Shown: one piece after another, positions 705-20,405 of the stretch
How the letters are laid out: every line of letters begins with the position of its first letter
How positions within the stretch are numbered: position 1 is the stretch's first letter
Source: a virus
Reading direction: 5' to 3' (one strand)
Length of the DNA stretch: 34,766 bases
Virus record (IMG/VR): IMGVR_UViG_3300020596_000074
Location: 1 to 34,766 of that record
The notes under the pieces: generated by a model
Databases searched by the model: none
Told to the model about the DNA's origin: nothing
The model's input: the letters and a program-made list of their open reading frames with translations, nothing else
Program-made: the position numbers and the translations under genes

Positions 705-2766
705 GCGGCCGGCCGGCCTGGCCGACGGCGCTGTGGTCTATCGCGAAGCGTTCGCGGCCGCACTGCGTCCGGACCGCGTCTACACCGTGAGCGAATGGGC
801 GGATGAGCATCGCCTGCTATCGGCTAAGTCCGCATCGGAGCATGGCCGGTGGCGCACCGCGCGCACGCCGTACCTGCGCGAGATCATGGACCACCTGTCG
901 CCGAGCCACCCGGCGACCGAGCTCACGTTCGTCAAGGGCACGCAGCTCGGCGGATCAGAGGCCGGATACAACTGGATCGGCGCCGTGATCGATCTCTGGC
1001 CCGCCCCGACGATGCTGGTTATGCCAACCGTAGACACCGCCAAACGCATCAGCAAGCAGCGCATCGCGCCGATGATCGAGGAGACGCCAGCTCTCGCTGT
1101 CAAGGTGACCGAAGCCAAGTCGCGCGACTCCGGCAACACGTTGTTAATGAAAGACTTTCCCGGCGGCGTCCTGGTGCTCACCGGCGCCAACAGCGCGCCA
1201 GGCCTGCGCTCGATGCCGGTGCGCTTCTTGTTCATGGACGAGGTCGACGCCTACCCGCTCGACGCCGACCAGGAAGGCGACCCGTGCGTGCTGGCCGAGA
1301 AGCGCACGCAAACGTTCTCGCGGCGCAAGATCTTCCGCGTCAGCTCGCCCAAGCTGCGCATCAACTCGCGCATCGAGCGCTACTACGACGCCAGCGATCA
1401 GCGCCGCTATCACGTGCCGTGCCCGCACTGTACGCATGAACAGTGGTTGCGCTGGGATCATGTGCGGTGGGAGACGCGCAAGATCTGGGAGATCACGCGC
1501 TCCGACGACGGCGAGACCATCGAGGTGCCGGCCGACACCGAGGGCGCCACCGAGCGCGACACGCGCGACCCGATCGACGTGTGGTACGAATGCGAGGCCT
1601 GCGAAGGCCGCGTCGACAACCACCAGAAAACCGAAATGCTCGCCGCCGGCCGCTGGATCCCGCTGCGCTCCGGCTCCGGCCGTCATCCCGGCTGGCATCT
1701 GTCTTCGCTGTACAGCCCGGTCGGATGGTTCTCGTGGTTCGACGCCGTGCGTCAATTCCTCCTGGCCGAGGCCGACATCTCCGGCGAGGCTATGCAGGGA
1801 TTCCAAAACACCGTGCTCGGCATCAGCTACGACCAGGCCGGCGACCAGCCCGACGAGAGCGAGCTCAAGAAGCACGTCGGCACGCACCGTCTGGGGGGCA
1901 AGGTGCCACGCAGCGCGCTCCTGCTCACCTGCGGTGTGGATGTGCAGGGCGATCGCCTGGAGGCCCGCGTATGGGGTTTCGGCCGGGGTGAGGAATCTTG
2001 GCTTATCGCGCGCGAGATCGTCTTCGGCTCGTATGCCGATGAGAACACGTGGCTCGCGCTCGAAGAGCTCCTGTTCCGCGCCTGGCCTCACGAAGGCGGC
2101 TCCACCCTGAAAATCACCGCCACGGCGGTGGATGCATCTGACGGAAATTCGACCCACTTCGTCCGCAATTTCGCGCGGAAGTGGTCGCATTGCCACGTGA
2201 TCGCGGTCAAAGGCCAGGCAATCGCCGGCAAGCCTATCTTGGGCCGTCCCACCGACCAGGACGTGACCCACCACGGCAAGATCATGCGCGGCGCCGTCAA
2301 GCTCTGGCCTATGGGATCCGACACAGCCAAGGCGCTGATCTACGCGCGCTACCGCGTCGCCGAGCACGGCTCCGGCTATGTCCACCTGCCGCAGGGATTA
2401 CCCGAAGACGAGTTCGCGCAGATGACCGCAGAAAAGGTCGTTACGCGCTACGTCAAGGGATTCCTGCGGCGCGAATGGACCAAGCAGCCCTCGGCCCGCA
2501 ACGAGGCTCTCGACTGCTTCGTCATGGCCCTTGCCGCCGCCCACTACGCCGGCATCGGCCGCGTCAACTGGGACCGCCTCGAGGCGCTGCTGATCCAGCC
2601 CGACATGTTCATCGCATCTGCGCCGGCGGCCGAGGCCGAGGCCGGGCCACCGCGCGAAGATGGCGGCCCGCCGCCCGAGCAGATCACCACACCGCAACCC
2701 GCCCTGCGCGGGTTTTTTGTTGCCCCGCCTCCGCGTCGCGGCGGCTCGTGGGCGACTCGCTATTAG
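676..2766 (+). CDS. Terminase large subunit (gpA family)
   Basis: Packaging ATPase and nuclease of 696 residues, a normal length for the lambda gpA family. The frame is open further upstream, but ATG at 676 is chosen because it gives a typical gpA N-terminus (VYTVSEWADEHRLL) and a short overlap with terS. A Walker-A-like segment KGTQLGGSE lies near residues 87-95, and Walker B FLFMDE at about 184-189. Paired cysteines near residues 250 and 310 resemble a metal knuckle. The C-terminal nuclease region carries Asp-containing motifs (CGVDVQGDRLE, TAVDASDGN, EALDCFVMALA). It translocates DNA into the prohead through the portal encoded downstream. Confidence 0.95.
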   Translation: MGSLTDLSLERPAGLADGAVVYREAFAAALRPDRVYTVSEWADEHRLLSAKSASEHGRWRTARTPYLREIMDHLSPSHPATELTFVKGTQLGGSEAGYNWIGAVIDLWPAPTMLVMPTVDTAKRISKQRIAPMIEETPALAVKVTEAKSRDSGNTLLMKDFPGGVLVLTGANSAPGLRSMPVRFLFMDEVDAYPLDADQEGDPCVLAEKRTQTFSRRKIFRVSSPKLRINSRIERYYDASDQRRYHVPCPHCTHEQWLRWDHVRWETRKIWEITRSDDGETIEVPADTEGATERDTRDPIDVWYECEACEGRVDNHQKTEMLAAGRWIPLRSGSGRHPGWHLSSLYSPVGWFSWFDAVRQFLLAEADISGEAMQGFQNTVLGISYDQAGDQPDESELKKHVGTHRLGGKVPRSALLLTCGVDVQGDRLEARVWGFGRGEESWLIAREIVFGSYADENTWLALEELLFRAWPHEGGSTLKITATAVDASDGNSTHFVRNFARKWSHCHVIAVKGQAIAGKPILGRPTDQDVTHHGKIMRGAVKLWPMGSDTAKALIYARYRVAEHGSGYVHLPQGLPEDEFAQMTAEKVVTRYVKGFLRREWTKQPSARNEALDCFVMALAAAHYAGIGRVNWDRLEALLIQPDMFIASAPAAEAEAGPPREDGGPPPEQITTPQPALRGFFVAPPPRRGGSWATRY

Positions 2767-2831
2767 CGTGCTTGCCGTCAAACTCTCCGGCGATGCCTCG
2801 CTCGTCGTTTCAAAAATAGAGGCGGTCCTAA

Positions 2832-2957
2832 ATGCCGGGTAATAACCTCGACGCATCGCGGGCGTTTGATATCGGCTTCGAATCCCGCACGCTGAGCGTC
2901 GTCGAATCGCGCGCGCTGTCCGTCGCCGCCGAAAACCGCGTCGTTACGCTGCATTGA
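2832..2957 (+). CDS. Small head-region protein, 41 residues
   Basis: A 41-codon frame between terminase and the adaptor gene, with GAGGCGG a few bases before the ATG and stopping three bases before the next gene. The product contains two related stretches, FESRTLSVVES and SRALSVAAENRVVTL, a short beta-type repeat. Tiny proteins with this Ser/Arg/Val repeat character are common at this place in lambda-like head modules. The exact role is unknown; capsid or connector assembly is a guess from position. Confidence 0.6.
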   Translation: MPGNNLDASRAFDIGFESRTLSVVESRALSVAAENRVVTLH

Positions 2958-2960
2958 TCA

Positions 2961-3311
2961 ATGTCCAGTGATTTCGCCACCGTCGGCGGCTACCCCTACA
3001 AAGTCATCTCGAAAGACCCGAATGCAACGCTCGACTACCACGTCATTCTGTCCGCCTGGCTCGGCGCCAACGCGCTCGCGTCGGCCGTGTGGGATGTCGA
3101 GGCGGGGCTGACCTTGGTCAGCTCCAGCATCAACAGCGGCTCGGTGACCATCGACGGCACCGCCTATGCCGCCAACACCGTCGCCACGGCCTGGCTCAGC
3201 GGCGGCACCGTCGGCGTCACTTACAAAGTGCGCTGCCGGTTCACCGACAACAACAGCCCGACGGCTCGGATCGATGACAGAACTTTTGCCGTCCGGGTAA
3301 TCGAGCGATGA
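2961..3311 (+). CDS. Phage structural protein, fiber-tail adaptor-like
   Basis: A 116-residue, mostly beta-sheet protein with no signal peptide or membrane segment. The pattern (N-terminal DYHVILSAWLGANALASAVWDVEAGLTL, then a Ser/Thr/Gly-rich middle and a C-terminal VGVTYKVRCRFTDNN strand) matches the small Ig-like adaptor proteins often found beside gpW and portal in lambda-like phages. It begins three bases after the preceding small gene, and its stop overlaps the gpW start by four bases, so it is cotranslated with the connector genes. Function is assigned by pattern and position. Confidence 0.55.
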   Translation: MSSDFATVGGYPYKVISKDPNATLDYHVILSAWLGANALASAVWDVEAGLTLVSSSINSGSVTIDGTAYAANTVATAWLSGGTVGVTYKVRCRFTDNNSPTARIDDRTFAVRVIER

Positions 3312-3559
3312 CCGAACTAGAATTCGCACGCGCCATGCTCGCTGCGCTGCAAACCGCGATGCTCGCGCACGTCAAGGGCCGGCCGATGCGCAAGAGCTAC
3401 GCTATCAACAATCGCAGCATCGAGTACAGCGACAATGCCGATGTCATCCGGGGCTATCAATTTTGGCAGGCCGAAGTGAAGCGCGCCGAGGCCGTTGAGG
3501 CCGTATCGGCAGGCCTGCCGAACCCGCGCCGCTCCTACGTGAGGTTCTCGCGCTCGTGA
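3308..3559 (+). CDS. gpW-like head-tail joining protein
   Basis: An 83-residue protein, close to the length of lambda gpW (68 aa). It has an N-terminal helix (ELEFARAMLAALQTAMLAH), the characteristic beta hairpin (YAINNRSIEYSDN) and a second helix (GYQFWQAEVKRAEAVE), the alpha-beta-alpha order of gpW. gpW completes the head and forms the platform where FII and the tail attach. It overlaps the neighbours by four bases on both sides; the stop overlaps the portal GTG. Confidence 0.75.
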   Translation: MTELEFARAMLAALQTAMLAHVKGRPMRKSYAINNRSIEYSDNADVIRGYQFWQAEVKRAEAVEAVSAGLPNPRRSYVRFSRS

Positions 3560-5178
3560 ACCTCATCGCCCGCTCCCGCGCCGCTCTGCGCATCCTGCTC
3601 GGCCGCTCGCCGGCCGCCCTCGCCAGCGCGCGAGGCCCGCAGGTGCGCATGTACCACGCCGCCAAAAATTCGCGTCTCACCAGCGGCTGGAACGCCACTC
3701 AATCTAGCTCCGATGCCGAGCTCCACTCCAGCCTGCGCACCCTGCGCGGCCGCAGCCGCTCGCTCATCCGCGACAACGCCTACGCCAAGCGCGCCAAAGC
3801 GATCGTCGTCAACAACGTCATCGGTACCGGCGTCGGCATCCAGGCGCAGGTGCAGAACAACCGCGGCCGCCTGCTCGACGACGTCAACAGTGGGATCGAA
3901 GACGTTTTCTACGCCTGGGGCCGCGCCGAGTACTGCCACACCGGCGGCGCGCTCGACTTCCAGGCGTTTGAACAAGCCTTGATGGGGCAGGTTTTCGAGG
4001 CCGGAGAGGTGTTCGTGCGGCGCCACCTGCGCAGCTTCGGCGACTCGCCTGTGCCCTACGCGCTCGAGATGATCGAGGCCGAGCGCATCGCCGACGAATA
4101 CGCCGTGCCGTTCGCCAATGGAGCGAACGAAATCCGCATGGGCATCGAGGTCGACAAATTCCAGCGCGCCGTCGCGTACTGGTTCCGCGAGCGCCACCCC
4201 GGCGACCTGCGCGCGGTCTCCACCGCCACCGACAACCTCATCCGCGTGCCGGCCGAGCAGATCTGGCACCTGCGCATCGTCACGCGCTGGCCGCAGGTGC
4301 GCGGCGAGCCGTGGATGCACGCCGTTATGCGCACGCTGAATGACATCGACGGCTATTCCGAGGCCGAGATCGTCGCCGCGCGCGCCGCCGCCTGCTACAT
4401 GGGATTCATCGAAACCCCGGACGGCAATAACCCTCTGGCCGATGCGCAGACCGACCCGGCCGCGCCGCGCGACTACAGCATGGAGGCCGGCACCGTCGAG
4501 GCGCTCGCCGCCGGCGAGAAATTTCAGGGCTATTCGCCGACCCGGCCGAACGCCGCCATGGCCGATTTCCTGCGCCACATGCTCCGCCAGGCCTCGTCTG
4601 GCATGCGTGGAGTTACGTATGAAACGCTCTCCGGCGACTATTCACAGAGCAACTACAGCTCATCGCGTTTGGGCGTGATCGATTCACGCGACGAACACCG
4701 CGTGCTGCAGCGCTGGTGGATTCGAAATTTCCGCGAGCTGCTGCACGCCGAGTGGCTGCGCCAGGCCGTCTATGCCGGTGCCATACCCGCGATCTCGATT
4801 GCAGAGTACGTCACCGATCCTATGAAATTCGCCCGCGCTAAATTCCAGCCGCGCGGCTGGACCTGGATCGATCCGTCCAAAGACGTCGACGCCTCGCTGG
4901 CGGCGATAAAGGGCGGCCTGACCACCATGACCGACGTCATCGACGCCACCAACGGCGGCGCCGATATCGAGGAAACACTCAAGACCCGCCGGCGCGAGCT
5001 GGATCTGATGGCAGACATCGATCTCGTGTTCGAGACCAGCCCCGAGGCCTACATGGCCAAGGCGGCGCCGCCGCCGGCGCCTGCGCCGAAAGAGCCCGCC
5101 GCACCGAAACCGGACGCAGCCGGCGACCAGGCCGCTGCCGACGATCCCGCGCGCGCGCGCGTTCACCAGCTGAGGTAA
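3556..5178 (+). CDS. Portal protein (lambda gpB family)
   Basis: A 540-residue portal protein, the usual size for the lambda family. It starts at a GTG that overlaps the gpW stop. Typical features are the N-terminal arm, the segment RSLIRDNAYAKRAKAIVVNN near residues 70-90 followed by VIGTGVGIQAQ, and the region EQIWHLRIVTRWPQVRGEPWM about 234-254. A Pro/Ala-rich tail of about 35 residues follows the last helices. Twelve copies would form the ring at the capsid vertex through which DNA passes and to which gpW binds. The next gene starts five bases after the stop. Confidence 0.93.
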   Translation: MNLIARSRAALRILLGRSPAALASARGPQVRMYHAAKNSRLTSGWNATQSSSDAELHSSLRTLRGRSRSLIRDNAYAKRAKAIVVNNVIGTGVGIQAQVQNNRGRLLDDVNSGIEDVFYAWGRAEYCHTGGALDFQAFEQALMGQVFEAGEVFVRRHLRSFGDSPVPYALEMIEAERIADEYAVPFANGANEIRMGIEVDKFQRAVAYWFRERHPGDLRAVSTATDNLIRVPAEQIWHLRIVTRWPQVRGEPWMHAVMRTLNDIDGYSEAEIVAARAAACYMGFIETPDGNNPLADAQTDPAAPRDYSMEAGTVEALAAGEKFQGYSPTRPNAAMADFLRHMLRQASSGMRGVTYETLSGDYSQSNYSSSRLGVIDSRDEHRVLQRWWIRNFRELLHAEWLRQAVYAGAIPAISIAEYVTDPMKFARAKFQPRGWTWIDPSKDVDASLAAIKGGLTTMTDVIDATNGGADIEETLKTRRRELDLMADIDLVFETSPEAYMAKAAPPPAPAPKEPAAPKPDAAGDQAAADDPARARVHQLR

Positions 5179-5182
5179 CACC

Positions 5183-7135
5183 ATGCCCGAAGCACCGCAA
5201 CGTCGCCGGCTCGAAGGCGACACGGTCCAGCTCGCCCCGCAGTTTCGCGATTTCACCGTCGATCGCGCCAAGGTCGACATCGACAAGCGCACCGTCGAGC
5301 TGACCTTCTCCAGCGAGTTGCCCTATGAGCGTTGGTGGGGTACCGAAGTGCTCGACCACTCGCCGGATTCAATCGACCTGACCCGGCTGAGCAACGGCGG
5401 CGCGCTGCTCATGGACCACGACACGCGCGACCAGGTCGGCGTGATCGAGCGCGCGTGGGTCGACAACAAAGTCGGCCGCGCGATTGTGCGCTTCAGCCGC
5501 AGTGCGCGCGGCGAGGAAATCCTGCGCGACGTGCAGGACGGCATCCGCTCGCTCGTCTCGGTCGGCTACCAGATCGACGAGATGCGCCTCGAAACCGTCG
5601 TGGACGACCACGAGACCTACCGCATCAGCCGCTGGACGCCGTTCGAGGTGTCCCTCGTGGCCGTGCCTGCCGACCCGAGCGTGGGCGTCGGGCGAGAGCA
5701 AGACCAACACGGGCCGCAGTACGCCGTACGCGTGCATCGGCCCGCAGGCAGCACCGAGCAGTCCCCGGCGAACCCCGCCACCACTACAGGAGTAACACCC
5801 ATGACCACCGTCACGGAAAACGCCCCGGCGGGCGCTGCCGCCGATCCGCACGCGCTGTCCCCCGACACGCAGCGCAAGCTAGAGCAGTCGCGCTGTGCCG
5901 CCCTGTCCTGCTTGGCCGAGCAGAACGCCATTCCGGCCGGAGTCGTGCGCGGCTGGATCGAATCCGGCAAGACCGTCGACATGGCCGCCGAAGACACCCT
6001 CAAACTGCTCGAGAAGCGCGCCAAAGACGGCGATCTCCAAGGCAAACTCGACATGCCGGCCAAGGACGTCAAAAACTACTCTTTGCTGCGCGCCATCCAT
6101 GCCGTGGTCGAGCGCAACTGGGACCAGGCCGGCCTGGAAAAAGAAGCGCACGACACCATGCAGCAGAAGCTGGGACGCATGCCGAAATCGGCGAACGCGT
6201 TCTTCGTGCCGATGGACGTACAGACGCGCCAGCTCGCTAACAATGACGACATCATGCGTCGGGTCAACGAGCGCGTCGCCCGGGTAACCGGCCGTCGCGA
6301 CCTGACCGTCGGCACGGCCAGCGCTGGCGGCTATCTGGTCTCCACTCAGAATATGGGTTTCATCGACCTGCTGCGCAATACCACCGTGCTCTACGCCATG
6401 GGCGCACGGCGCATGGGAGGTCTGACCGATTCCATCACCATCCCGCGCCAGACCTCCGGCGCGACCGCCTACTGGCTATCGACCGAGGCGACGCAGATCA
6501 CCGAGAGCCAAATGGTGCTGGGTCAAATCGCCATGACGCCCAAAACCGTCGGCGCTTATACCGAGATCAGCCGCCAGCTAGCGCTCCAGTCCAGTCCGGA
6601 TGCCGAGGCGCTCGTCATGGCCGACCTGGCCGCTCAGGTTGGCGTGGACATCGATGCAAAGGGCATCTCCGGTTCCGGTTCCTCGGGCCAGCCAACCGGC
6701 ATCACCAATGTCTCGGGCGTCGGTTCGGTGAGCGGCACCTCGCTCGCCTATGCCGGCGTCATAGAGTTCATGACCGATGTTTTCGGTGCCAATGTGCCGT
6801 TGGCCAATGCCGGCTACGTGACCACCGGCGCAGTGGCCGGGCTGCTCAAGGCGAGGGTCAAATTCAGCTCGACCGCCTCGCCCGTTTGGGACGGCCGGCT
6901 CGAATCCGCCAGCGTCGACGGGTACCCGGCAATGGCGTCGAACAACATGCCCGCTGCGACCATGATTTTCGGCGATTTTTCTCAGGTGATCATCGCCGAG
7001 TGGGGCGTGCTCGAAGTCGACGTGAATCCGTATGCGAATTTTCAAGCCGGCATCATCGGCGTGCGCGCGATTGCGTCGATCGACATTGCAGTGCGCTACC
7101 CCGGCGCATTCTCGATCGCGAGTTCGATCACCTGA
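5183..7135 (+). CDS. Fused prohead protease and HK97-type major capsid protein
   Basis: A single 650-codon frame joins two proteins that are separate genes in many phages. Residues about 15-180 are an HK97-type prohead protease (S78/U35): a His in LLMDHD (His79) and a Ser in SLVSVGY (probably Ser126) fit its catalytic pair, and FEVSLVAVPADPSVG is the family's C-terminal motif. A Gln/Ala/Pro linker follows. Residues about 207-650 contain a helical delta-like region and then the capsid fold, with the N-arm start RDLTVGTASAGGYLV and the ADLAAQVGVDIDAKGISG helix. An in-frame ATG at 5801 with a strong ribosome site could make capsid protein alone. The protease would clear the scaffold before expansion. 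Confidence 0.9.
   Translation: MPEAPQRRRLEGDTVQLAPQFRDFTVDRAKVDIDKRTVELTFSSELPYERWWGTEVLDHSPDSIDLTRLSNGGALLMDHDTRDQVGVIERAWVDNKVGRAIVRFSRSARGEEILRDVQDGIRSLVSVGYQIDEMRLETVVDDHETYRISRWTPFEVSLVAVPADPSVGVGREQDQHGPQYAVRVHRPAGSTEQSPANPATTTGVTPMTTVTENAPAGAAADPHALSPDTQRKLEQSRCAALSCLAEQNAIPAGVVRGWIESGKTVDMAAEDTLKLLEKRAKDGDLQGKLDMPAKDVKNYSLLRAIHAVVERNWDQAGLEKEAHDTMQQKLGRMPKSANAFFVPMDVQTRQLANNDDIMRRVNERVARVTGRRDLTVGTASAGGYLVSTQNMGFIDLLRNTTVLYAMGARRMGGLTDSITIPRQTSGATAYWLSTEATQITESQMVLGQIAMTPKTVGAYTEISRQLALQSSPDAEALVMADLAAQVGVDIDAKGISGSGSSGQPTGITNVSGVGSVSGTSLAYAGVIEFMTDVFGANVPLANAGYVTTGAVAGLLKARVKFSSTASPVWDGRLESASVDGYPAMASNNMPAATMIFGDFSQVIIAEWGVLEVDVNPYANFQAGIIGVRAIASIDIAVRYPGAFSIASSIT
5788..5803 (+). promoter_or_regulatory. 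Internal ribosome site and in-frame start for capsid protein
   Basis: AGGAG at 5788-5792 lies eight bases before ATG at 5801, in frame with the protease-capsid fusion (codon 207). Initiation here would give a 444-residue capsid protein without the protease. It falls exactly at the linker between the two domains, where an old separate start would be expected. Use of the start is inferred. Confidence 0.6.
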
Positions 7136-7201: not shown

Positions 7202-7465
7202 ATGCTCAGCAATGCCGCCAATGACCGCACCCTGACCCTGGTCAAAGTCGAGTGCCTCATCCCGTTTCGCCTCCGCGAGAACAACGTGACCCGCATCGTG
7301 CGCGGTCGCGAGATTGACAAAACCGGTGCCGTCACAAAAAACGGCGAGCTGGTGGACGTCGAATTTTGGTTAGCTAACGCGCTGGCAAATCACAACCCGC
7401 CCAAAGTCGGGCCGGCCAGCGATATCGGCCGCAAGGCGCTTGAGCGCCAACAAGCCGCGGCCTGA
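7202..7465 (+). CDS. Small structural-module protein, unknown function
   Basis: An 87-residue protein starting at ATG 7202 with AGAGGA just upstream. The upstream codons of the same frame would run through the terminator stem, so this start is preferred. The product is soluble and mixed alpha/beta: TLTLVKVECLIPFRLRENNVTRIVRGREI followed by a short helix EFWLANALANHNPP. Nothing in it allows a firm function. Its place between capsid and connector genes suggests a head completion or decoration role. Confidence 0.6.
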   Translation: MLSNAANDRTLTLVKVECLIPFRLRENNVTRIVRGREIDKTGAVTKNGELVDVEFWLANALANHNPPKVGPASDIGRKALERQQAAA

Positions 7466-7564
7466 GCACACCCTCCGGGGGAGCCACCTCGCCCCCGGCC
7501 GAACCGATGACCACCGAAAACGCGGACGTGCTCGTAGCGGGCAGGCCACGCAAAGGAGAACGCG

Positions 7565-7939
7565 ATGTTGGGTAACCAGGCGCAGGCCGCCATAGCAACA
7601 ACTCTGCTCGATCCGATCAGTGCGGCTAATACCGCAGCGGCCACCAGCGGCTGGGCCGACGTACGCGATGCCGAAGGCGATCTCATGTTTACCGTGCAGG
7701 TCGGCACTCTCACCGGCTCCATCACCTGGACCATCCAGGACGCGACCGACAGCAGTGGCACCGGCGCTGCCGGCATCACGCCCAACGAGGGCGCGTTCGC
7801 CGCCGGCGCGGCCAACCAGATCCAGAAACGGACCATCAATGCGTCTGCCGTGCGCGGCTGGGTGCGCGTGGTCGGCACGATCGTCACCGGCCCGGCATTG
7901 GTCGCCGCGAACATAAAGCGGCACTCGAAATACGTCTGA
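7565..7939 (+). CDS. Putative head decoration or structural protein
   Basis: A 124-residue protein with a good ribosome site (AAAGGAG) before ATG 7565. The N-terminal part is helical and Ala-rich; the rest alternates strands (GDLMFTVQVGTLTGSITWTI) and loops rich in Gly, Thr and Ala, ending in VRVVGTIVTGPALVAANI. This beta pattern is common in phage decoration and minor capsid proteins. A 22-codon frame at 7507-7575 overlaps the start and could couple translation, but I see no independent support that it is a gene. Confidence 0.55.
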   Translation: MLGNQAQAAIATTLLDPISAANTAAATSGWADVRDAEGDLMFTVQVGTLTGSITWTIQDATDSSGTGAAGITPNEGAFAAGAANQIQKRTINASAVRGWVRVVGTIVTGPALVAANIKRHSKYV

Positions 7940-7990
7940 TACGTCTGATGATCCCGGGAATCGAAACAAACTTGTAGAGGGTGCACCATT

Positions 7991-10321
7991 ATGACGATTC
8001 GCTACCTGACGGTTTTCCGCAATGCTGGTCAGCTCACGACGATAGGTGAGCGCGCCGATTTCGCGCCAGAAAAAGAAGCGCAGTTTGTGGTCGAGGGCAA
8101 AGCGGAATACCTCTACGTCGACCCGCCACAAATCGGGTACAACGAAATCGCCGACCCATTGTCGCGGCTGACCCGGAGCTCCAACCTCGCCCACCAGCGG
8201 TGGGGCCGGCGCCCAATGGTGAACGGGCTGCACGGCAGCGAGACCGGCGCGCGCGAGTTCCGACGCCTGGGCGGCAAGATCGTCGCGTACTACTATAGCG
8301 AGTGGCGCCAGTACGGCAACACCTACAATCGGTGGCCGTGGAAGTGGTTCGTTAACTACTCCGACAGATTGCCGTTGTTGTCCACGCCACTGCCATCGAA
8401 GCAATTGTGGCCGCTGGAATACGCTACCGACGGATTCACCGTGGGCGGCGCCACCTGGGCGCTGGTCGGCTATAGCGCCTTTAGCGCCGACTATGCGGGC
8501 TGGAGCGCCACCAACGCGACGCTGTCGGTTTCCGCCGGTGTCGCGACGTTGACCGCGACCGGGTCGGGGCTCAATAACGCGATACTGGCCTCGCCGGTCT
8601 CGCCCACGCTCGACGTGCCGTGCGACGACATCTCGTTTATCAGGGTCCGTGTCGAGCTCACCACCGTCGTTGCGGGTACTACGTGGAAGGGGCGCATCTA
8701 CTACGCCACCGCGGCATCGACTTCTTTCGACGAGACCAAGACACTGCACATTGCCGAGCCCGTCAGCACCACCGGGATCCACGACATCATCGTCCCGATA
8801 CCGGCCGGCCAGCCTAATTGGCTCGGCGGTGTCCTGACCCGCCTGCGCATCGACCTGTGGAGCGGCGTAGGCACGGTCATGAAATTGCACGCGTGGCTCG
8901 GCTATCGCGGCTATGTGCGCGTGACCGCGACCGGAACCGACCCTATTCTCTACAGCCAGACCCCGCTGGGGATCGCTGCGGCCGACTACAAGACCGCGGT
9001 GATCGACGTGCGCAAGGTCGCAGGCACTACCTGGGAAGGCAAACTTTTCTGGATCACCGAAGCCGACACAACTTACAACGCCGGCAAATCCATGACGGTG
9101 AGCGAACCGTCGTGGGACGGCAAATGGAAAACGCTGACAGTCGATCTGAGTGCCAAAGCGGAATGGACCGGCACCATCCGTCAATTTCGATGGGATCTGG
9201 GCGGGTCCGCCGATTTTGTGATTGACGCGCGCAAAGCCGAACTGCGCCCGATCGCGGGCTCAGTGGTCGAGCTGGTTCAGAACCAAACCCTGGGCCTCGA
9301 CAGCGACGATCAGAACGGCGTCGACTGGGAGATCCGGACCGCATACGGCAACGGTATCGATGTTTTCACGCACAATTTTTACTGGAATTCCGCTATCGGA
9401 TTCGGCACCGGCAACCACCAGGAAAATGCGCTCGAACGCCACGCCTGCTCGCAGGCCGAGCCGAACATGAAATTTTGTTTGCAGTGGTCGAATCTCGACG
9501 CTACGAATCCGTTCTCGACCGCCGCCGATATCAATCCAATGCTCGACAAGTGGCACAGCTATTTCCGCTTCGGCCGGTACTGGAAGATCGGCGGCAAACC
9601 CGTGGTGTTCATTTTCAGCACCGCCAACCTCAAGGCGTGGGCCGCGACCCTCTGGAGCATCCCCGCCGACAACGACGCGGTGAAGCGATTTCTCGACGAG
9701 ATGGACGCGTACCTCGTGGCCCTCTCTGGCAGCTATGCGCCACAGGGCGTCTACTGGGTGACGCAGCAGCATAACGCTGACCCGGTTCTGACCGGGCGCG
9801 CGCTCGGGTACGTGGGGACGAACGAATATGCCGGATTCGACGCCGGCACGCGCTACAACTTCTTCGGCTACTCGCGCACGATCGTCCAGACTATATCTGG
9901 CGGCACCCTCGCCGACGGCTACCCGTCGAATATCGCGCCGCTCATGAGTTTCGCGCAACTGCGCGAGGCCTACCTCGGCGCGGCGCGGTGGATCGTGCGC
10001 GAGAGCGGCTCGCTGCTCCCCTACTGGTATCCCGTGCTCGCCGGGTGGGACCTGCGCGCATGGATGGGCTACAAGGGCGTCACCGCCCCGCCGCCAGCCT
10101 ACAACACCATATCGACGCCTGAGGAATTCGCCGCCGCGCTTCGCGACGCCAGGGACTACACGCTGGCCAACCTCGCTGCGATGCAGTCGCCGGAAGGGCC
10201 CGTGGTCACGATCTGCGCTTGGAACGAGTTTGGCGAAGGTTCGTTTATCGCGCCGTCGCGGCGCTATCATTTCCAAATGTGCGAGGCCGTGTTGCGCGTC
10301 TTCGGGCACGCCGAGGGCTGA
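7991..10321 (+). CDS. GH99/WbsX-like glycosidase-type protein with inserted beta-sandwich repeats
   Basis: A 776-residue protein. Residues 1-70 resemble a small virion-attachment domain. IVAYYYSEWRQYG (97-109) matches the first strand of GH99-like/WbsX domains. The fold appears to resume at about 445: GIDVFTHNFYWN, NMKFCLQWSNL (492-502), FGRYWKIGGKPVVFIF (527-542), and near the end ICAWNEFGEGSFIAPS (741-756), the family's terminal signature with acidic residues. Between them (about 140-420) lie two related modules, marked by AGTTWKGRIYYATA (228-241) and AGTTWEGKLFWITE (344-357), probably carbohydrate-binding sandwiches. The likely role is cleaving or binding host surface polysaccharide on the virion. 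The location among head genes rather than tail fibres is odd. Confidence 0.75.
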   Translation: MTIRYLTVFRNAGQLTTIGERADFAPEKEAQFVVEGKAEYLYVDPPQIGYNEIADPLSRLTRSSNLAHQRWGRRPMVNGLHGSETGAREFRRLGGKIVAYYYSEWRQYGNTYNRWPWKWFVNYSDRLPLLSTPLPSKQLWPLEYATDGFTVGGATWALVGYSAFSADYAGWSATNATLSVSAGVATLTATGSGLNNAILASPVSPTLDVPCDDISFIRVRVELTTVVAGTTWKGRIYYATAASTSFDETKTLHIAEPVSTTGIHDIIVPIPAGQPNWLGGVLTRLRIDLWSGVGTVMKLHAWLGYRGYVRVTATGTDPILYSQTPLGIAAADYKTAVIDVRKVAGTTWEGKLFWITEADTTYNAGKSMTVSEPSWDGKWKTLTVDLSAKAEWTGTIRQFRWDLGGSADFVIDARKAELRPIAGSVVELVQNQTLGLDSDDQNGVDWEIRTAYGNGIDVFTHNFYWNSAIGFGTGNHQENALERHACSQAEPNMKFCLQWSNLDATNPFSTAADINPMLDKWHSYFRFGRYWKIGGKPVVFIFSTANLKAWAATLWSIPADNDAVKRFLDEMDAYLVALSGSYAPQGVYWVTQQHNADPVLTGRALGYVGTNEYAGFDAGTRYNFFGYSRTIVQTISGGTLADGYPSNIAPLMSFAQLREAYLGAARWIVRESGSLLPYWYPVLAGWDLRAWMGYKGVTAPPPAYNTISTPEEFAAALRDARDYTLANLAAMQSPEGPVVTICAWNEFGEGSFIAPSRRYHFQMCEAVLRVFGHAEG

Positions 10322-10325
10322 CCGC

Positions 10326-10616
10326 GTGTTCGAGACCCTCGCCGATTTCACTGCCGCCGCAGACTTCGGCGTGGGCGCCGTCTGGTCTGTAGGCGCGGCC
10401 TCTGTCGACGGCATTTTCGATGCCGGCTACCAAGCGGCCGCGCAGGGCGCATTCGCCGGCGTCGAGAGCGCGCGCTTCACCTTCACGTGCGCCGCGGCTG
10501 ACGTTCCCACCGTCGCGCACGGCCAGACCATGACCATCAACAGCGTCGCCTACGTCATCCGCGGCGTACATCCCGACGGCACCGGCATGGTCCTGCTCGA
10601 CCTGCAGGAGCCCTGA
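10326..10616 (+). CDS. Head-tail joining protein (FII-like)
   Basis: A 96-residue protein from GTG at 10326, four bases after the previous stop. The frame is open further upstream but that part overlaps the GH99-like gene. The sequence ADFGVGAVWSVGAASVDGIFDAGY, then FTCAAADVPTVAHGQTMTINSVAYVIRGVHPDGTGMVLLDL is the usual beta-barrel pattern of lambda FII-type attachment proteins, including the HGQTMTINSVAYVI motif. It joins filled heads to tails. The stop overlaps the next ATG. Confidence 0.7.
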   Translation: MFETLADFTAAADFGVGAVWSVGAASVDGIFDAGYQAAAQGAFAGVESARFTFTCAAADVPTVAHGQTMTINSVAYVIRGVHPDGTGMVLLDLQEP

Positions 10617-11053
10617 TGGCCAACCACCTCCGCCAGCAACTGCGCGAAGCCGTCGCGACCCGGTTGATCGGGCTCACCACCACCAGCACGCGCGTGTTCC
10701 AGTCGCGCGTGTACGCGCTCGAATCCGGCGATCTGCCGGCGCTGCGGGTCTACGCGCTCAGCGACGAAGTGCAGGACGCCACTGTCGGCACGCTGATCGG
10801 GCGGCGCTGTGCGCTCGTCATCGAAGGCTGTGCCAAGGCGGCGGCCGATCTCGATGACGTCATCGACACCATTGCCAAAGAGGTTGAGGTCGCGCTCGCC
10901 ACCGCCGTCACTGTCAGCGGCCGATCCATCGGCGTGCTTTACGAGGGCTGCTCGATCGACTTCGACGCCGAGGCCGCCAAGCCGCACGGCCTCATCACCA
11001 TGAACTACAGCGCGACGCTCTACCACGACCGCGCCACACCGGACGCGCTGTAA
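10616..11053 (+). CDS. Tail terminator protein (gpU-like)
   Basis: A 145-residue alpha/beta protein overlapping the FII-like gene by one base. The N-terminal helix (LRQQLREAVATRLIGL), the LPALRVYALSDEV strand, helix AAADLDDVIDTIAKEVEVALA, and a closing strand GLITMNYSATLYHD match the tail terminator family of lambda U-like proteins. It would cap the tail tube and fix its length, and bind the FII face of the head. Order after FII and before the tube gene supports the call. Confidence 0.7.
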   Translation: MANHLRQQLREAVATRLIGLTTTSTRVFQSRVYALESGDLPALRVYALSDEVQDATVGTLIGRRCALVIEGCAKAAADLDDVIDTIAKEVEVALATAVTVSGRSIGVLYEGCSIDFDAEAAKPHGLITMNYSATLYHDRATPDAL

Positions 11054-11141: not shown

Positions 11142-11783
11142 ATGGCAAATGTATCGATTTGGGCCGGCGTGGCGGTGGCGATTCAGTCCGCGCTCGCCGC
11201 CTCGAAGACCGTCACCGCGGTCACCAAGGCGAGCCCGGGCGCGGTCAGCAGCACCGCTCACGGCTACAGCGACGGCGACTACGTGCTCATCACCGCGCTC
11301 GGCATGAGCCAGATCAACGGCCGCGTGTTTCGCGTTTCCGGCTCCGCCACGAATTCATTCAACCTGGAGGCCGAAGACACCACGCTGTACGACACGTTCA
11401 CCAGCGGCGGCGCGCAGAAAATCACATTCGGCACGACCGTCTCAACGCTGACCACGGTAAACGCCTCCGGCGGAGACTTCGATTTCATCGACACCACCAC
11501 GATCCACGACCTGATCAAGTCGCAGATCCCGGGACAGGCGACGTCGTCCACGTATACCTTCGACTCCATCTGGGACGTGGCCGATGCCGGTTTGGTCGCC
11601 CTAAAAACCGCGTCCGATAACAAGGCGCAACGCTGCGTGCGCTTCACCTTCGCAAACGCGCAAAAACTTGTTTTCAACGGCTATATCGGCACCACGCTAT
11701 CGCCCACCGGCAGCGCCGGCGACAAGGTCACCACCCCCGTCACCATCACGGCATTCGGCCGTCCGACGGTCTACTCCACCTGA
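11142..11783 (+). CDS. Major tail tube protein (gpV-like)
   Basis: A 213-residue protein with AGAGG before ATG 11142. The N-terminus carries a small module (SSTAHGYSDGDYVLITALG, then SQINGRVFRVSGSATNSFNLE) seen as an inserted beta domain in many phage structural proteins, the E1 FCCH-like module. The remaining part, GGDFDFIDTTTIHDLIKSQ and a closing TTPVTITAFGRPTVYS, fits tail tube proteins. It would stack in hexameric rings around the tape measure. The stop overlaps the chaperone start by one base. Confidence 0.75.
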   Translation: MANVSIWAGVAVAIQSALAASKTVTAVTKASPGAVSSTAHGYSDGDYVLITALGMSQINGRVFRVSGSATNSFNLEAEDTTLYDTFTSGGAQKITFGTTVSTLTTVNASGGDFDFIDTTTIHDLIKSQIPGQATSSTYTFDSIWDVADAGLVALKTASDNKAQRCVRFTFANAQKLVFNGYIGTTLSPTGSAGDKVTTPVTITAFGRPTVYST

Positions 11784-12172
11784 TGCCGAGCCTGATCGAG
11801 CGCCGCATGGCCGGGCGCGAACAGTGGATCGAGGTAGACGGATTCGAACTGCGGATCCGCCGGCCGACGCGATTCCAGATGGCCGTCTGGAAGGCTCGCA
11901 GCGATGCCAACGACGCGCTCGCAACGCCCGACCCGGCCTACGGAATGTTGCAGAATCTCGAAGTGTTGCGCGAATGCGTGATCGACTGGCGCAAGGTCAC
12001 CGAGCTCACCCTGCAGGTGCCCGGCGGCGATGGTGCCGTTCTCCCGTTCGATGCCGCTCTGCTGCTCGACTACATGGCCGAGCAGATCACGCTCATGGTC
12101 GCGACCATCAACGCTATTTATGCGGCGGTGCAGGCCGACGAAGAGCGCAAGGCGGCCACCACAAAAAACTGA
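11783..12172 (+). CDS. Tail assembly chaperone G
   Basis: A 129-residue product of the unshifted frame. It has a small beta N-terminus (EQWIEVDGFELRIRRPTRFQMAVWKAR) and a helical rest (NLEVLRECVIDWRKV, LLLDYMAEQITLMVATINAIYAA). Its position between tube and tape measure, and the slippery site before its stop, identify it as the lambda G-type chaperone. It would coat the tape measure protein during tail assembly. It ends at TGA 12170-12172, immediately after the slippery heptamer. Confidence 0.85.
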   Translation: MPSLIERRMAGREQWIEVDGFELRIRRPTRFQMAVWKARSDANDALATPDPAYGMLQNLEVLRECVIDWRKVTELTLQVPGGDGAVLPFDAALLLDYMAEQITLMVATINAIYAAVQADEERKAATTKN

Positions 12173-12408
12173 AGGCGGCCCTCGAAGCCGCGCAGTTCTC
12201 TCGCGCGTTCGGTGCTCCGGGCGCGCAAGCAACTCACGACCCGGTCACCGAGTGCGTGATCGCCGCCTGGAACCTGATGGGCGGTGAGATCGCCTGGGCC
12301 GCCCTCGACCACATTGCCGACCTGGTGGGCCTGGAGCGCGACGCGCTCATCCACGGCCTGTCCCAGATCCGCGACCACTACCGCGAGCAGGAAGAGAGGA
12401 AGCGCTGA
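11783..12408 (+). CDS. Tail assembly chaperone G-T, made by -1 frameshift
   Basis: Reading continues in the -1 frame after the AAAAAAC heptamer at 12163-12169 and gives a 208-residue fusion. The 79-residue extension (LKAALEAAQFSRAF, then CVIAAWNLMGGEIAWAALDHIADLVGLERDALIHGLSQI) is a continuous helical reading frame ending at 12406-12408, with no start of its own needed. In lambda the T part binds the tube protein while G binds the tape measure, and the G to GT ratio is critical. The frame junction codons are AAA AAC then CTG after a one-base step back. Confidence 0.88.
12163..12169 (+). promoter_or_regulatory. -1 ribosomal frameshift site AAAAAAC
   Basis: The heptamer is read A AAA AAC in the zero frame and directly precedes the TGA stop. 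It fits the X XXY YYZ rule for simultaneous slippage, and the G and T coding parts meet here with the correct -1 offset. Confidence 0.88.
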
Positions 12409-12413
12409 CAACA

Positions 12414-12998
12414 ATGGCCGGCCTGGACATCAAGATAAGCGTCGATGCCGCCAGCATCCGCCTGCAGCTCGATCGCCTGCAGGGCAACGCCATTCCGCGC
12501 GCCACCGCGCGTGCGTTGAACCGCGCGGCCACCAGCGTGCGCGACGCGGCGGCGAAAGAGATTCGCAAGGTCTTCCCGCTGCTCAAAGCGAGGTCCGTCA
12601 AGGGCCGACTGCGGATCAAGCCGGCGCGAGCGAACTTCCTCGAAGCCCTGATCGCCGCCCGTGGCGACTACGACCCGCCGCTGTACCTGTTCGACCCGAA
12701 GTGGCGGCAGCGCCAGGCGGGCGGTGCGACGATCCGCAGCGGGCGCGGCGGCCGCCTGACCGTGGCCGGGGCGTTCACCGCGCGCACGCGCTACGGCCGG
12801 CTCGCGGTGTTCCGGCGCGAGGGCGCGAGCCGCAGGCCGCTGCAATTCCTGCGCGCCTCCGACGCCGGTCTGCCCACCCTCGCCGGCGTGCTGCTCCAGA
12901 GCGCTGTGCAGACATCACTCGCCAGCATCGGGCGCGCCCGCTTCGCCCAGGTGTTCGAACAAGAGGCGCGCTTCCGGCTCGCGAAAGTGATCAATTAA
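12414..12998 (+). CDS. Minor tail protein Z family
   Basis: A 194-residue basic protein. The start (MAGLDIKISVDAASIRLQLDRLQGNAIPRATARALNRAATSVRDAAAKEI) matches the minor tail Z family closely. The middle has VAGAFTARTRYGRLAVFRREG and the C-terminus a short helix. gpZ acts at the tail's head-proximal end in lambda, where its gene lies between FII and U. Here it is instead between the G-T and tape measure genes. GAGAGGA precedes the ATG; the stop TAA overlaps the tape measure ATG by one base. Confidence 0.8.
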   Translation: MAGLDIKISVDAASIRLQLDRLQGNAIPRATARALNRAATSVRDAAAKEIRKVFPLLKARSVKGRLRIKPARANFLEALIAARGDYDPPLYLFDPKWRQRQAGGATIRSGRGGRLTVAGAFTARTRYGRLAVFRREGASRRPLQFLRASDAGLPTLAGVLLQSAVQTSLASIGRARFAQVFEQEARFRLAKVIN

Positions 12999-16625: not shown

Positions 16626-19600
16626 ATGCCGCCGCTGATCCCGATACTGATCGCGGCCGGACTGTCCGCGACCGCTGCGAGCGTGGTCGCGTTCGTCGTG
16701 CAGGTCGCTGTGTTCGCGCTGGTCGCCAAAGCGCTCGCGCCGAAGCAGAAGAGGCCCGGCGCCGGGCCTGAGGCGAGCCAGGATCGCAGCGTCGTGGTGC
16801 GCTCGACCACGGAGGCGCATCGCATCGTCTACGGCCGCGTGATCACCTCCGGCATGCTGGCCTACTTCGAGACCACCGGCGCATCGAAGGAGTACGCTCA
16901 CATGGTCGTCATCCTTGCCGCGCACGAGATCAAATCGATCAACCGCGTGTGGCTGGACGACACCGAGATCGGCGCCGTCGACGGCTCGGGCAACGTGACG
17001 TCGGGCCGCTACAGCGGCGTCGCGCGCGTGATCAAGGCAATGGGCAGCACGTCGCAGGCGGCCGATGCGACGCTTATCTCCGAATCCGGTGGCGTGTACA
17101 CCTCGACCGACAGGTGGCGCGGGCGGGCCTATCTGTACCTGCGCATCAAGCGCGACGACACGGCGTTTCCCAACGGCCTGCCGAATGTGCGCTGCGAGAT
17201 CGACGGACGTCTGTGCTACGACCCGCGCGACGCCGCCACGCGCTGGACCATGAACCCGATCCTGATCCAGCGCGATATCCTGACCTCCGCCTGGGGCCTG
17301 TCGGCCGACAGCACCGAGATCGACGACTCGCTCGCCAGCGCCAGCGCGAACGTGTGCGATGAGCGGGTAACCGTGTCCGCCTACACGTCCTCCGCGATAG
17401 CGGCGGATGCAACGGCCGAAACGCTGACCTTCGCCGCCATCGAGATCCGGTTCGGCGCCGGCGACGGCGTCACTATCGCGAGCACCGGCACGCTGCCGGG
17501 CAATCTCTCGGCCGCGACCACGTACTACGTGATCCGCCGCGGCGACAACGTCGTGCAGCTCGCCACCACATTTGCCGATGCGCTCGCGGGCACCGCGCGC
17601 AATATCACCAGCACCGGAACCGGCACGATCACGCTCGGGCACGTCGATCAGGTGCGTTACACGTGCAATGGAACGTTCACGCGCAGCACCGGCCCGAAAG
17701 AGATGCTCGATGCTGCCGGCATGACTCACGCCGGGCCGCCGCCGATTTTCCGCGAAGGGCTTTGGCGCCTGCATGCCGGCGCGTGGTCCGCGCCGGCGGT
17801 AACCCTGAGCGAATCCGATCTGCGTGACGACGTGACCGAGCAGGTGCGCCCGGCCCGGCAGTCCCTGTTCAACGCGGTGCGCGGCACTTACTCGCCGGGC
17901 TACAACTCGACCCAGGTCGATTTTTTTCCGGTGACCAACGCAACTTATGAGACGCAGGACGGCAGCGTCCAGATCTACAAAGACCTCGACTTTCCTATGG
18001 TCGACAACACCGTGCGCGCGCAACGGCTCGCCAAACTCGCGCTCGAATTGTCGCGCCGCGGCTCGATGCTCACTCTGCCGTGCAAGCTCACCGCACTGCG
18101 CGTCGCTACGTGGGACACGATCACGCTGAACCTCGCGGTGCTCGGCATCTCCGGCGTGACCTACCGCGTGAAGGGCTGGAGGCTCACGGCAGAGAACGGC
18201 GTGCTCGGCGTCGACCTGACCGTACAGGCTGAGGACTCAACCGCCTACGGCTGGAGCAGCAGCGACGCGACGGCGCCCACCGTGCCGCCGGATCTGGTGC
18301 TGCCGAATCCATCCGTGATCGCCCCGCCGACGTCGCTCGTGATGAGCAGCGGTACCGCAGATTTACTCAAGACCGGTGACGGCACAATTATCAGCCGCGT
18401 CAAGGTGAGCTTTGCCGGCGCGGCCGAGCCTAATTTGTGGCGCTACGAGTTGCAGTGGAAAAAAACCACCGAGACCGACTACAACACGGTCTACATGCCA
18501 TCGGATTCGACCGTCTACTACCTCGCGCCGGTCGAGGATGGCATCAACTACAACATCCAGGTGCGCACCCATGCCGTGCTCGGTCCGCGCTCGGCCTGGT
18601 TGACCGGCGTTCATACCGTCATCGGCAAGACCGCCGCGCCGACCGCCCCTTCGTCGCTCGGCGTGACCACCGCCACCGGCGGATTCGATCTCACGTGGTC
18701 CGCCTGCCCGGACGCCGACTATTTCGCCACTCAGGTTTACGAGTCGAGCACAAACGTGCGCAGCAGCGCCACGCAGATCGCCGAGATCTCCAGCACGCGC
18801 CTTGCGCGCAGCGGCCTGGCCGGCGGCCTGACACGCTTCTACTGGGTGCGGCACGTAGACACCACCGGCAATGTGTCGAGCTTCTACCCGGTCAGCGCCA
18901 CCGGCGGCGTCAGCGGGGTGACCGGCGGCACCGGCGACGAGCTGCACATCACGCACGATTTCACCGCCTATCTGGCCGGCGGCGCGAGCGGATACATGAC
19001 CGGCGCGGGCTATTGGCTAGGCTATAACGGCGGCTTCTACCGCATGCACCTGGGCAACCCGGACGGCAGTTACATGGCCTGGACCGGCCAGCACCTGAGC
19101 ATCGGCGGCAGCGGGCTCGGACTCGACATCAAAGGCGCGGCCCTGCGCAGCGGCGCTATCGGCATGCTGGCCGGCAGCGGATTCTTTGCCGGCTACACCC
19201 AGAACCTGTTGCAGCGGACCGAGGATTTCGCGCACGCGTTTTGGCTTAAGGCCAACGTCACCATCACTGCCGCTGGCGTGTCGCCGACGGGCACCACGGC
19301 CAATCAGTTGACTCTGTCCGGTGCGTCCGCCGGCAACCAGGTATACCCGTCTTTCACCCCGACCAGCACAGGCAACCGCTACGCGCAGAGCGTCTGGATG
19401 CGTGCCGGCAACGTCAGCACGGCCAAGCTCTATGTGTACGACTTCACCGCCGGCGCTTATGTGCCGGGCCACGGTGCCATCCTCGAGGGCCCCGGCTCGG
19501 TCGCTCTCGATGCACTGGGCGCCGTCGATGTGAGCGCGTTGTCGACTACTGTATGGACGCGGGTAGGGCTAGTGACCGATGCCGCGGTCCCGAGCGGTAA

Positions 19601-20405
19601 TTCCTTCACAATATTTTTTGCGCATCAGGGTAGCAACGGCTACGGCACGAGCACCATTGGCGATTATTTCTACGCCTGGGGCGCGCAGCTCAACGACGGA
19701 ACCGGCGCCTCCGCCTACCAGCAGGCCACCACCGCCTCCGTGGCCGGCGCCTGGCGCATGATGATCGGCAATTCGCTCGGCAACAACGCGCAGTGGGACG
19801 GGACGAATCTCACTGTTACTGGCGGTGTGCTGGCCAGCACAATCGTGGCCGGCGACGTGCAGGTAAATACTACCGGCAACGTGCGCGGCGGCCAGAGCGC
19901 CTACAACACCGGCGCGGGATTTTTCCTCGGCTACTCCGGCGGGGCCTACAAATTCTCGATCGGCAACCCGGCCGGGAATTACATGACCTGGGACGGCAGC
20001 AGCCTGTTGGCATCCGGCCAGATCATCGATACGCGCTCGTACCAGGCCGGCTCGCTCGCGATTGCCGCGAGCAGCAAACAGGTGTTCCCGGGCACCACCG
20101 GATATGTTAAATACATACAAATCACCGTCGCGCGCAGCGGCACGCTGACGGTCGATTTCACCATCGGTGGTGGAATTTTCGGCGGCACCACATACGGCAA
20201 AATCTACCGCAACGGCTCCGCGGTCGGCACCGAGCGATCCGTCGCCGGCACCGGCACCACCGGATTCTCAGAGGACATCGCGTCTATTTCCGCCGGCGAC
20301 ACGATCGAGCTCTGGGGCAAATTTGGGGGCAGTGGCGGCGGATGGATTCAGGACTACACCCTGAAAAACTCTTTCCGGATCGGCGAGTTCGTCTCGCTCC
20401 AATGA
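16626..20405 (+). CDS. Host specificity/tail tip protein (J-like) with sugar-binding-type modules
   Basis: A 1259-residue protein. A hydrophobic start (residues 1-40) is followed by the J-like hub: VVVRSTTEAHRIVYGRVITSG and KEYAHMVVILAAHEI at about 57-100. A small inserted module (TLPGNLSAATTYYVIRRG) lies at about 258-335. Two fibronectin-type domains lie at about 565-667 and 671-760. Two related repeats, GAGYWLGYNGGFYRMHLGNP (about 790) and GAGFFLGYSGGAYKFSIGNP (about 1095), flank a jelly-roll module that begins NLLQRTEDFAHAFW (859) and closes FYAWGAQLNDG. A Gly-rich beta domain ends the protein. It should determine receptor binding at the tail tip. The distal half is the probable host-range part. 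Confidence 0.88.
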   Translation: MPPLIPILIAAGLSATAASVVAFVVQVAVFALVAKALAPKQKRPGAGPEASQDRSVVVRSTTEAHRIVYGRVITSGMLAYFETTGASKEYAHMVVILAAHEIKSINRVWLDDTEIGAVDGSGNVTSGRYSGVARVIKAMGSTSQAADATLISESGGVYTSTDRWRGRAYLYLRIKRDDTAFPNGLPNVRCEIDGRLCYDPRDAATRWTMNPILIQRDILTSAWGLSADSTEIDDSLASASANVCDERVTVSAYTSSAIAADATAETLTFAAIEIRFGAGDGVTIASTGTLPGNLSAATTYYVIRRGDNVVQLATTFADALAGTARNITSTGTGTITLGHVDQVRYTCNGTFTRSTGPKEMLDAAGMTHAGPPPIFREGLWRLHAGAWSAPAVTLSESDLRDDVTEQVRPARQSLFNAVRGTYSPGYNSTQVDFFPVTNATYETQDGSVQIYKDLDFPMVDNTVRAQRLAKLALELSRRGSMLTLPCKLTALRVATWDTITLNLAVLGISGVTYRVKGWRLTAENGVLGVDLTVQAEDSTAYGWSSSDATAPTVPPDLVLPNPSVIAPPTSLVMSSGTADLLKTGDGTIISRVKVSFAGAAEPNLWRYELQWKKTTETDYNTVYMPSDSTVYYLAPVEDGINYNIQVRTHAVLGPRSAWLTGVHTVIGKTAAPTAPSSLGVTTATGGFDLTWSACPDADYFATQVYESSTNVRSSATQIAEISSTRLARSGLAGGLTRFYWVRHVDTTGNVSSFYPVSATGGVSGVTGGTGDELHITHDFTAYLAGGASGYMTGAGYWLGYNGGFYRMHLGNPDGSYMAWTGQHLSIGGSGLGLDIKGAALRSGAIGMLAGSGFFAGYTQNLLQRTEDFAHAFWLKANVTITAAGVSPTGTTANQLTLSGASAGNQVYPSFTPTSTGNRYAQSVWMRAGNVSTAKLYVYDFTAGAYVPGHGAILEGPGSVALDALGAVDVSALSTTVWTRVGLVTDAAVPSGNSFTIFFAHQGSNGYGTSTIGDYFYAWGAQLNDGTGASAYQQATTASVAGAWRMMIGNSLGNNAQWDGTNLTVTGGVLASTIVAGDVQVNTTGNVRGGQSAYNTGAGFFLGYSGGAYKFSIGNPAGNYMTWDGSSLLASGQIIDTRSYQAGSLAIAASSKQVFPGTTGYVKYIQITVARSGTLTVDFTIGGGIFGGTTYGKIYRNGSAVGTERSVAGTGTTGFSEDIASISAGDTIELWGKFGGSGGGWIQDYTLKNSFRIGEFVSLQ

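Follow-up and report, generated by a model that had tools for sequence, protein, structure and literature searches.

Why would a phage carry a gene for a glycosidase-like protein among its head genes, when phage enzymes against capsule or O-antigen are usually sought among tail genes? The question is raised by a 34,766-base virus record from IMG/VR (the window), the left half of which is a lambda-like structural module. An initial annotation of this DNA had placed there a GH99/WbsX-like domain split by two modules. The open reading frame, its motifs, the match to PF14307 and a split-barrel model agree with that description, and the gene, encoding 776 amino acids, lies as described between a small head gene and an FII-like gene with a PF05354 match (Table 1). 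Upstream, the PF04586 protease and the PF05065 major capsid protein occupy a single 650-aa open reading frame. The small phrog_5707-type gene is a putative decoration gene, referred to here as decoration-type.

The arrangement is absent from the cultured phages of the collection, as might be expected if a bacterial WbsX gene had been joined to phage genes during assembly or if the reading frame had arisen by chance. However, a separate contig, L002, which is 99% identical, also carries this gene, and the FII, terminator, and tube genes behind it are those of the window. Because this order is repeated, an assembly chimera is very improbable, and would have to be one artefact common to both contigs.

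Table 1. Features of the head module and of the 776-aa protein in the window. Residue numbers refer to the 776-aa protein.
Feature	Positions	Strand	Basis
Terminase	529-2766
Portal	3556-5178
Prohead protease and major capsid protein fusion	5183-7135	+	PF04586 + PF05065, phrog_617
87-aa gene in the place of the relatives' stand-alone slot-domain gene	7202-7465	+	Similarity too weak to call
phrog_5707-type small head gene, putative decoration, upstream of slot	7565-7939	+
776-aa slot-domain/GH99-like (WbsX) protein, ATG start	7991-10321	+
N-terminal head-slot domain, residues 1-45	7991-8125	+	Leave-one-out HMM 16.6 bits; stand-alone family HMM 12.2 bits
First barrel strand (beta1) and beginning of beta1-alpha1 loop, residues 94-130	8270-8380	+	L063 alignment; strand model pLDDT ~94
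~305-residue insertion in beta1-alpha1 loop, residues 131-435	8381-9295	+
Insert module 1, beta-sandwich, residues ~206-304	8606-8902	+
Insert module 2, beta-sandwich, residues ~319-420	8945-9250	+	Homologous to phage J tail-tip/tail-fibre modules
Remaining GH99/WbsX barrel, residues 436-774	9296-10312	+	PF14307; family HMM; GH99 Z 18-24
Predicted catalytic glutamates E746 and E749 (NEFGE, corresponding to GH99 NEWHE)	10226-10237	+
FII-like head-closure gene, downstream of slot	10326-10616	+	PF05354 4.2e-18
Tail terminator	10616-11053
Tail tube	11142-11783
Z, tape measure, and distal tail protein	Between tail tube and J
J-type tail-tip protein	16626-20405

The GH99-like barrel and its insertion

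The motif AYYYSEW is found at residue 99 of the protein and CAWNEFGEGSFIAPS at residue 742, with AGTTW at residues 228 and 344 between them. As the initial annotation had anticipated for the C-terminal part, residues 443-766 match the WbsX family PF14307 (E=1.4e-11, 44.9 bits against a Pfam cut-off of 25.1). The only other Pfam match was a sub-threshold one to GH71, and by structure the protein matches GH99 best. The alignment covers positions 58-349 of the 350 in the PF14307 profile, and the absent first 57 positions would fit a first strand displaced by the insertion. A family HMM built from 78 WbsX relatives, 77 from genomes and one from a viral contig, scored 115-119 bits against the protein, its alignment beginning no earlier than the second strand (residue 437). 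Residues 71-145 gave no match to the full-length WbsX HMM (-0.5 bits), nor did residues 1-440 to an HMM of the WbsX N-terminal part alone.

The first strand was located by comparison with the closest relative, L063, a WbsX protein of Geothrix terrae with 30% identity, whose gene adjoins a glycosyltransferase-type gene. Its RIGVYYYPGWKA...PWAKIKPYKEREPLL aligns with KIVAYYYSEWRQ...PWKWFVNYSDRLPLL at residues 96-130 of the window protein, with a Smith-Waterman (SW) score of 55 that was reached by 0 of 500 shuffles. Of six relatives compared, only L063 gave a significant N-terminal match; L133, L110, L128, L136, and L073 did not. A first structure model (from alignment A5), in which the relatives started at beta2, is uninformative on beta1, and five of its module sequences were misplaced by the aligner. 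Residues ~425-774 of this model already superposed on GH99 enzymes with Z 18-22. The family beta1 falls on residue 100 in alignments A9 and A11, and does not in A4, A8, A10, and A12. The second model was folded from A11, which was picked for its aligned beta1 and is thus not independent of the L063 comparison, so the placement of beta1 rests first on that independent comparison.

In the A11 model, residues 96-101 form a strand (pLDDT ~94), and residues ~94-776 superpose with Z 20.5-21.3 on GH99 enzymes and Z 24.4 on OpGH99A (5ngw), compared with Z 17-19 for GH71 and Z 17 and below for other barrels. Model confidence is low for residues 1-54 and 105-215. Because beta1 at residues 94-103 completes the barrel that superposes on GH99, the insertion of residues ~131-435 falls in the first beta-alpha loop. 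The model, the L063 comparison, and the superposition over residues 94-776 together give a complete barrel that includes beta1, in which residues ~94-130 and ~436-776 form one domain and the modules are an insertion, the architecture initially proposed. We consider a GH99/WbsX-type fold practically certain. A search of BFVD structures gave weak partial matches only.

The window protein resembles WbsX (PF14307) proteins in fold, signature motifs, and catalytic pair, and differs from them in its added N-terminal head-slot domain, its first-loop insertion of ~305 residues, and its setting among phage head genes. It superposes over residues 94-776 with Z 20-24 on the endo-alpha-mannosidases/mannanases BtGH99, BxGH99, and human MANEA, and on OpGH99A, with the E-x-x-E motif aligned. 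In contrast to the window protein, with which they share 10-15% identity, these enzymes are without a head-slot domain and have no comparable insertion in their aligned chains of 340-360 residues.

When the WbsX profile was compared with the PDB, GH99 structures were found by sequence (4ad1, 1.7e-8), and the alignment equates NEWHE of GH99 with NEW.E of the family and NEFGE of the window protein. The catalytic residues of GH99 are the E-x-x-E glutamates, E404 and E407 in MANEA (PMC11025385). Both glutamates, E746 and E749, are invariant in the aligned relatives. An alternative is that the barrel is a lectin that binds polysaccharide and has lost cleavage, which would suit the inserted binding-type modules and the low overall identity to characterized GH99 enzymes. 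We consider this unlikely, since the protein retains both glutamates of the catalytic pair together with the WNE..E..P residues around them, and judge that it is quite probably active. The substrates of characterized GH99 enzymes are alpha-mannosides. A limited search of open-licence papers found no characterized WbsX glycosidase.

The two inserted modules had been described as homologous, and they are 32% identical over 63 residues, with an SW score of 90 against 58 for the best of 1000 shuffles. Module 2 matches the tail protein family phrog_2589 (6e-8) and has homologs within the J and tail-fibre proteins of phages of Klebsiella and Stenotrophomonas, and similar stretches were found in 17 further viral loci. 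The 776-aa protein has no significant similarity to the phage's own J protein. Both modules were modeled with moderate confidence as beta-strand-rich sandwiches, with tandem CBM22 domains among their weak Foldseek matches. We infer that they bind polysaccharide or receptor.

A shared N-terminal domain and its slot in the head module

Relatives of the locus were gathered through the capsid protein and through the decoration-type protein. Window residues 1-45 align without gaps with the first 39-45 residues of proteins encoded in loci L192 (SW 59, 0 of 1000 shuffles) and L202 (SW 50, 1 of 1000). The L218 protein is tied to the group through L202 and L192 (0 of 1000 each), its direct tie to the window protein failing (111 of 1000). 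Leave-one-out HMMs of the four proteins scored 16.6 bits for the window, 24.1 for L202, 20.0 for L218, and 27.4 for L192, with 0 of 1000 shuffles reaching each score, and a weaker match was seen in L193/L194. Past this domain, the window, L192, L202, and L218 proteins differ in kind. From these alignments, there is little doubt that one N-terminal domain is shared among different cargo proteins.

In most relatives, a similar domain makes up a small gene of its own, located after the capsid gene and before the decoration-type gene. An HMM built from these stand-alone genes scored 12.2 bits with the window protein, 12.9 with L192, and 15.5 with L218, values reached by 0 of 500 shuffles, and only 0.2 bits with the L202 N terminus. 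Of its 165 matches, 164 lie in the head module, counted in 154 loci that were fetched around head genes, so that other genome regions are under-sampled, even though many of the loci reach the tail genes. The sole match far from capsid genes is at 16606-16720 of L014 (E 2e-9). In L006, whose capsid protein is 99% identical, a gene at 7728-8141 has two tandem copies of the domain and is flanked by the 87-aa gene on one side and by a divergent decoration-type gene on the other.

The N-terminal 70 residues had initially been proposed as a virion anchor. The anchor-like character stands, in that the domain is common to unrelated C-terminal domains, has the same gene position, and hardly occurs outside head modules; the length does not, being ~45 residues rather than 70. 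A PDB search with the domain profile gave no match. Lambda gpFI is not supported as a parent of the domain: the gene neighborhood (capsid, FI, FII) is alike and the last ~25 residues look similar, but the similarity falls short of significance (hhalign probability 10.6%, E 0.003; HMM score within the shuffle range), and "FI-like" is only a positional label.

The slot between the decoration-type gene and FII is empty in most relatives. Among 71 distinct pairs, in which some loci with two decoration-type genes are counted twice, the gap is <150 bases in 53, with nothing between the two genes, 150-600 bases in eight, and at least 600 bases in 10. In the window, the slot holds 2.4 kb of cargo. The L202 slot encodes a 545-aa protein with a GDSL esterase domain (PF13472 1.6e-21; phrog_6102 6e-47), and the L218 slot a 530-aa protein that is beta-helix by motif only, without Pfam or PHROG matches. 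The L192 protein (325+ aa) is beta-helix-type through a weak NosD match and motif, and L193/L194 encode a 120-aa protein and later a beta-helix (L194, PF13229 1.5e-14); FII is not reached in any of these three loci.

Other slots hold cargo of different kinds. L161 encodes an HslV-family-like peptidase (3493-4083; phrog_1040 4e-19) and L259 a similar reading frame (7538-8086), with no evidence of the N-terminal domain in either. In L040, found through its capsid gene, a 507-aa protein (11277-12800) between the small head gene and FII contains an N-terminal methyltransferase domain (PF08241 2e-9), and its C-terminal part resembles a GT9-type glycosyltransferase by eye only; a slot domain is not evident. 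Because of this methyltransferase and the L161/L259 peptidase, the slot appears to accept possibly intracellular cargo as well. The slot cargo of L208/L209 is weakly LamG-like: at L209 1726-5899, tandem decoration-type genes are followed by ~3.7 kb of cargo with the LamG-like part and a repeat-rich 321-aa protein. Downstream of the capsid relative in L032, positions 2460-5958 encode a pectate-lyase-type protein (phrog_27797 3e-32) and a match to podophage GP4 fibre I protein gp80 (PF23140).

Placement and function of the protein

The 776-aa protein could be a moron product, that is, an intracellular enzyme outside the particle that modifies host or virion glycans, as in serotype conversion or superinfection exclusion. 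The WbsX relatives L062 and L063 lie in glycan-gene surroundings, and the methyltransferase-containing L040 protein takes a comparable place between the small head gene and FII. In addition, wbsX has been reported as an O-antigen glycosyltransferase gene struck in phage-resistant mutants (PMC13391952), which also counts for this reading. However, the inserted modules are those of tail-tip and tail-fibre proteins, and the N-terminal domain is head-specific and common to esterase and beta-helix proteins, which suits virion display better. We regard the moron reading as improbable, and the protein as probably present in the virion.

Among other viral contigs, besides the near-identical L002, WbsX was found only in L062, in a glycan gene cluster, and a first scan of 80 decoration loci gave no second WbsX. 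Three records labeled as phage with WbsX (H1/H38, H39, and H40) are gut contigs that lack annotation; L003, at least, looks to be bacterial.

We lean toward a head- or neck-mounted GH99-like endo-glycosidase with two binding modules that cuts host surface polysaccharide. The first ~45 residues would dock the protein on the shell of the head or where head and tail join, a role suggested by the distribution of the domain. The C-terminal barrel would grip and cut host capsule, O-antigen, or slime, the two beta-sandwich modules in its loop would bind polysaccharide, and particles may thereby be helped to bind or cross this layer ahead of receptor recognition by the tail-tip J protein. Mounting at the neck, as a collar or whisker docked to FII or the terminator rather than on the capsid surface, is a sub-case of this explanation and is suggested by the position of the gene immediately upstream of the head-closure gene. 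We think it the less likely case, as the domain in most relatives is a separate gene between the major capsid and decoration-type genes, which points to the shell; for a protein present in the virion, we slightly favor the head shell over the neck.

In phage tailspikes, a small conserved N-terminal domain mounts C-terminal enzymes that are exchanged at one locus. The slot proteins of the window, L192, L202, and L218 are alike in having a conserved anchor-type N terminus and exchangeable C-terminal domains, and include beta-helix-type members, L192 weakly and L218 by motif only. Unlike tailspike depolymerases, the window protein has an N-terminal head-slot domain and a GH99-like barrel rather than a beta-helix, and its gene lies in the head module rather than the tail module. 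We see an even chance that an uncultured siphophage-like lineage has a dedicated head-module slot in which a docking domain of ~45 residues is joined to exchangeable carbohydrate-active proteins of GH99-like, GDSL, or beta-helix type, the head itself bearing enzymes directed at host polysaccharide.

Head structures that engage glycans have been described. The gene transfer agent RcGTA has head spikes, attached to its capsid pentamers, that enable it to bind the polysaccharide capsule of its host (PMC7296036), and Ig-like domains on the capsid and tail of mycobacteriophage Douge bind glycans (PMC13033339). If mounted on the head, the window protein would likewise engage host polysaccharide, but binding is the role described for the RcGTA spikes, which have a separate base protein, and we claim no sequence relation. 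A limited search of open-licence papers turned up no account of a comparable glycosidase mounted on the head. If the head does carry exchangeable enzymes through a small docking domain, host-range prediction must include the slot, the domain might act as a tag for enzyme display on capsids, and a role for the small, as yet unexplained genes downstream of the major capsid gene becomes directly testable.

Two observations concern the tail genes of the window and of L002. The tail tube protein has an E1_FCCH (PF16190) stretch that scores above the cut-off (31 vs 29.5 bits). The Z-type gene of L002 (3834-4442) clearly differs from that of the window (12414-12998), which suggests recombination in this near-identical phage downstream of its tube and chaperone genes.
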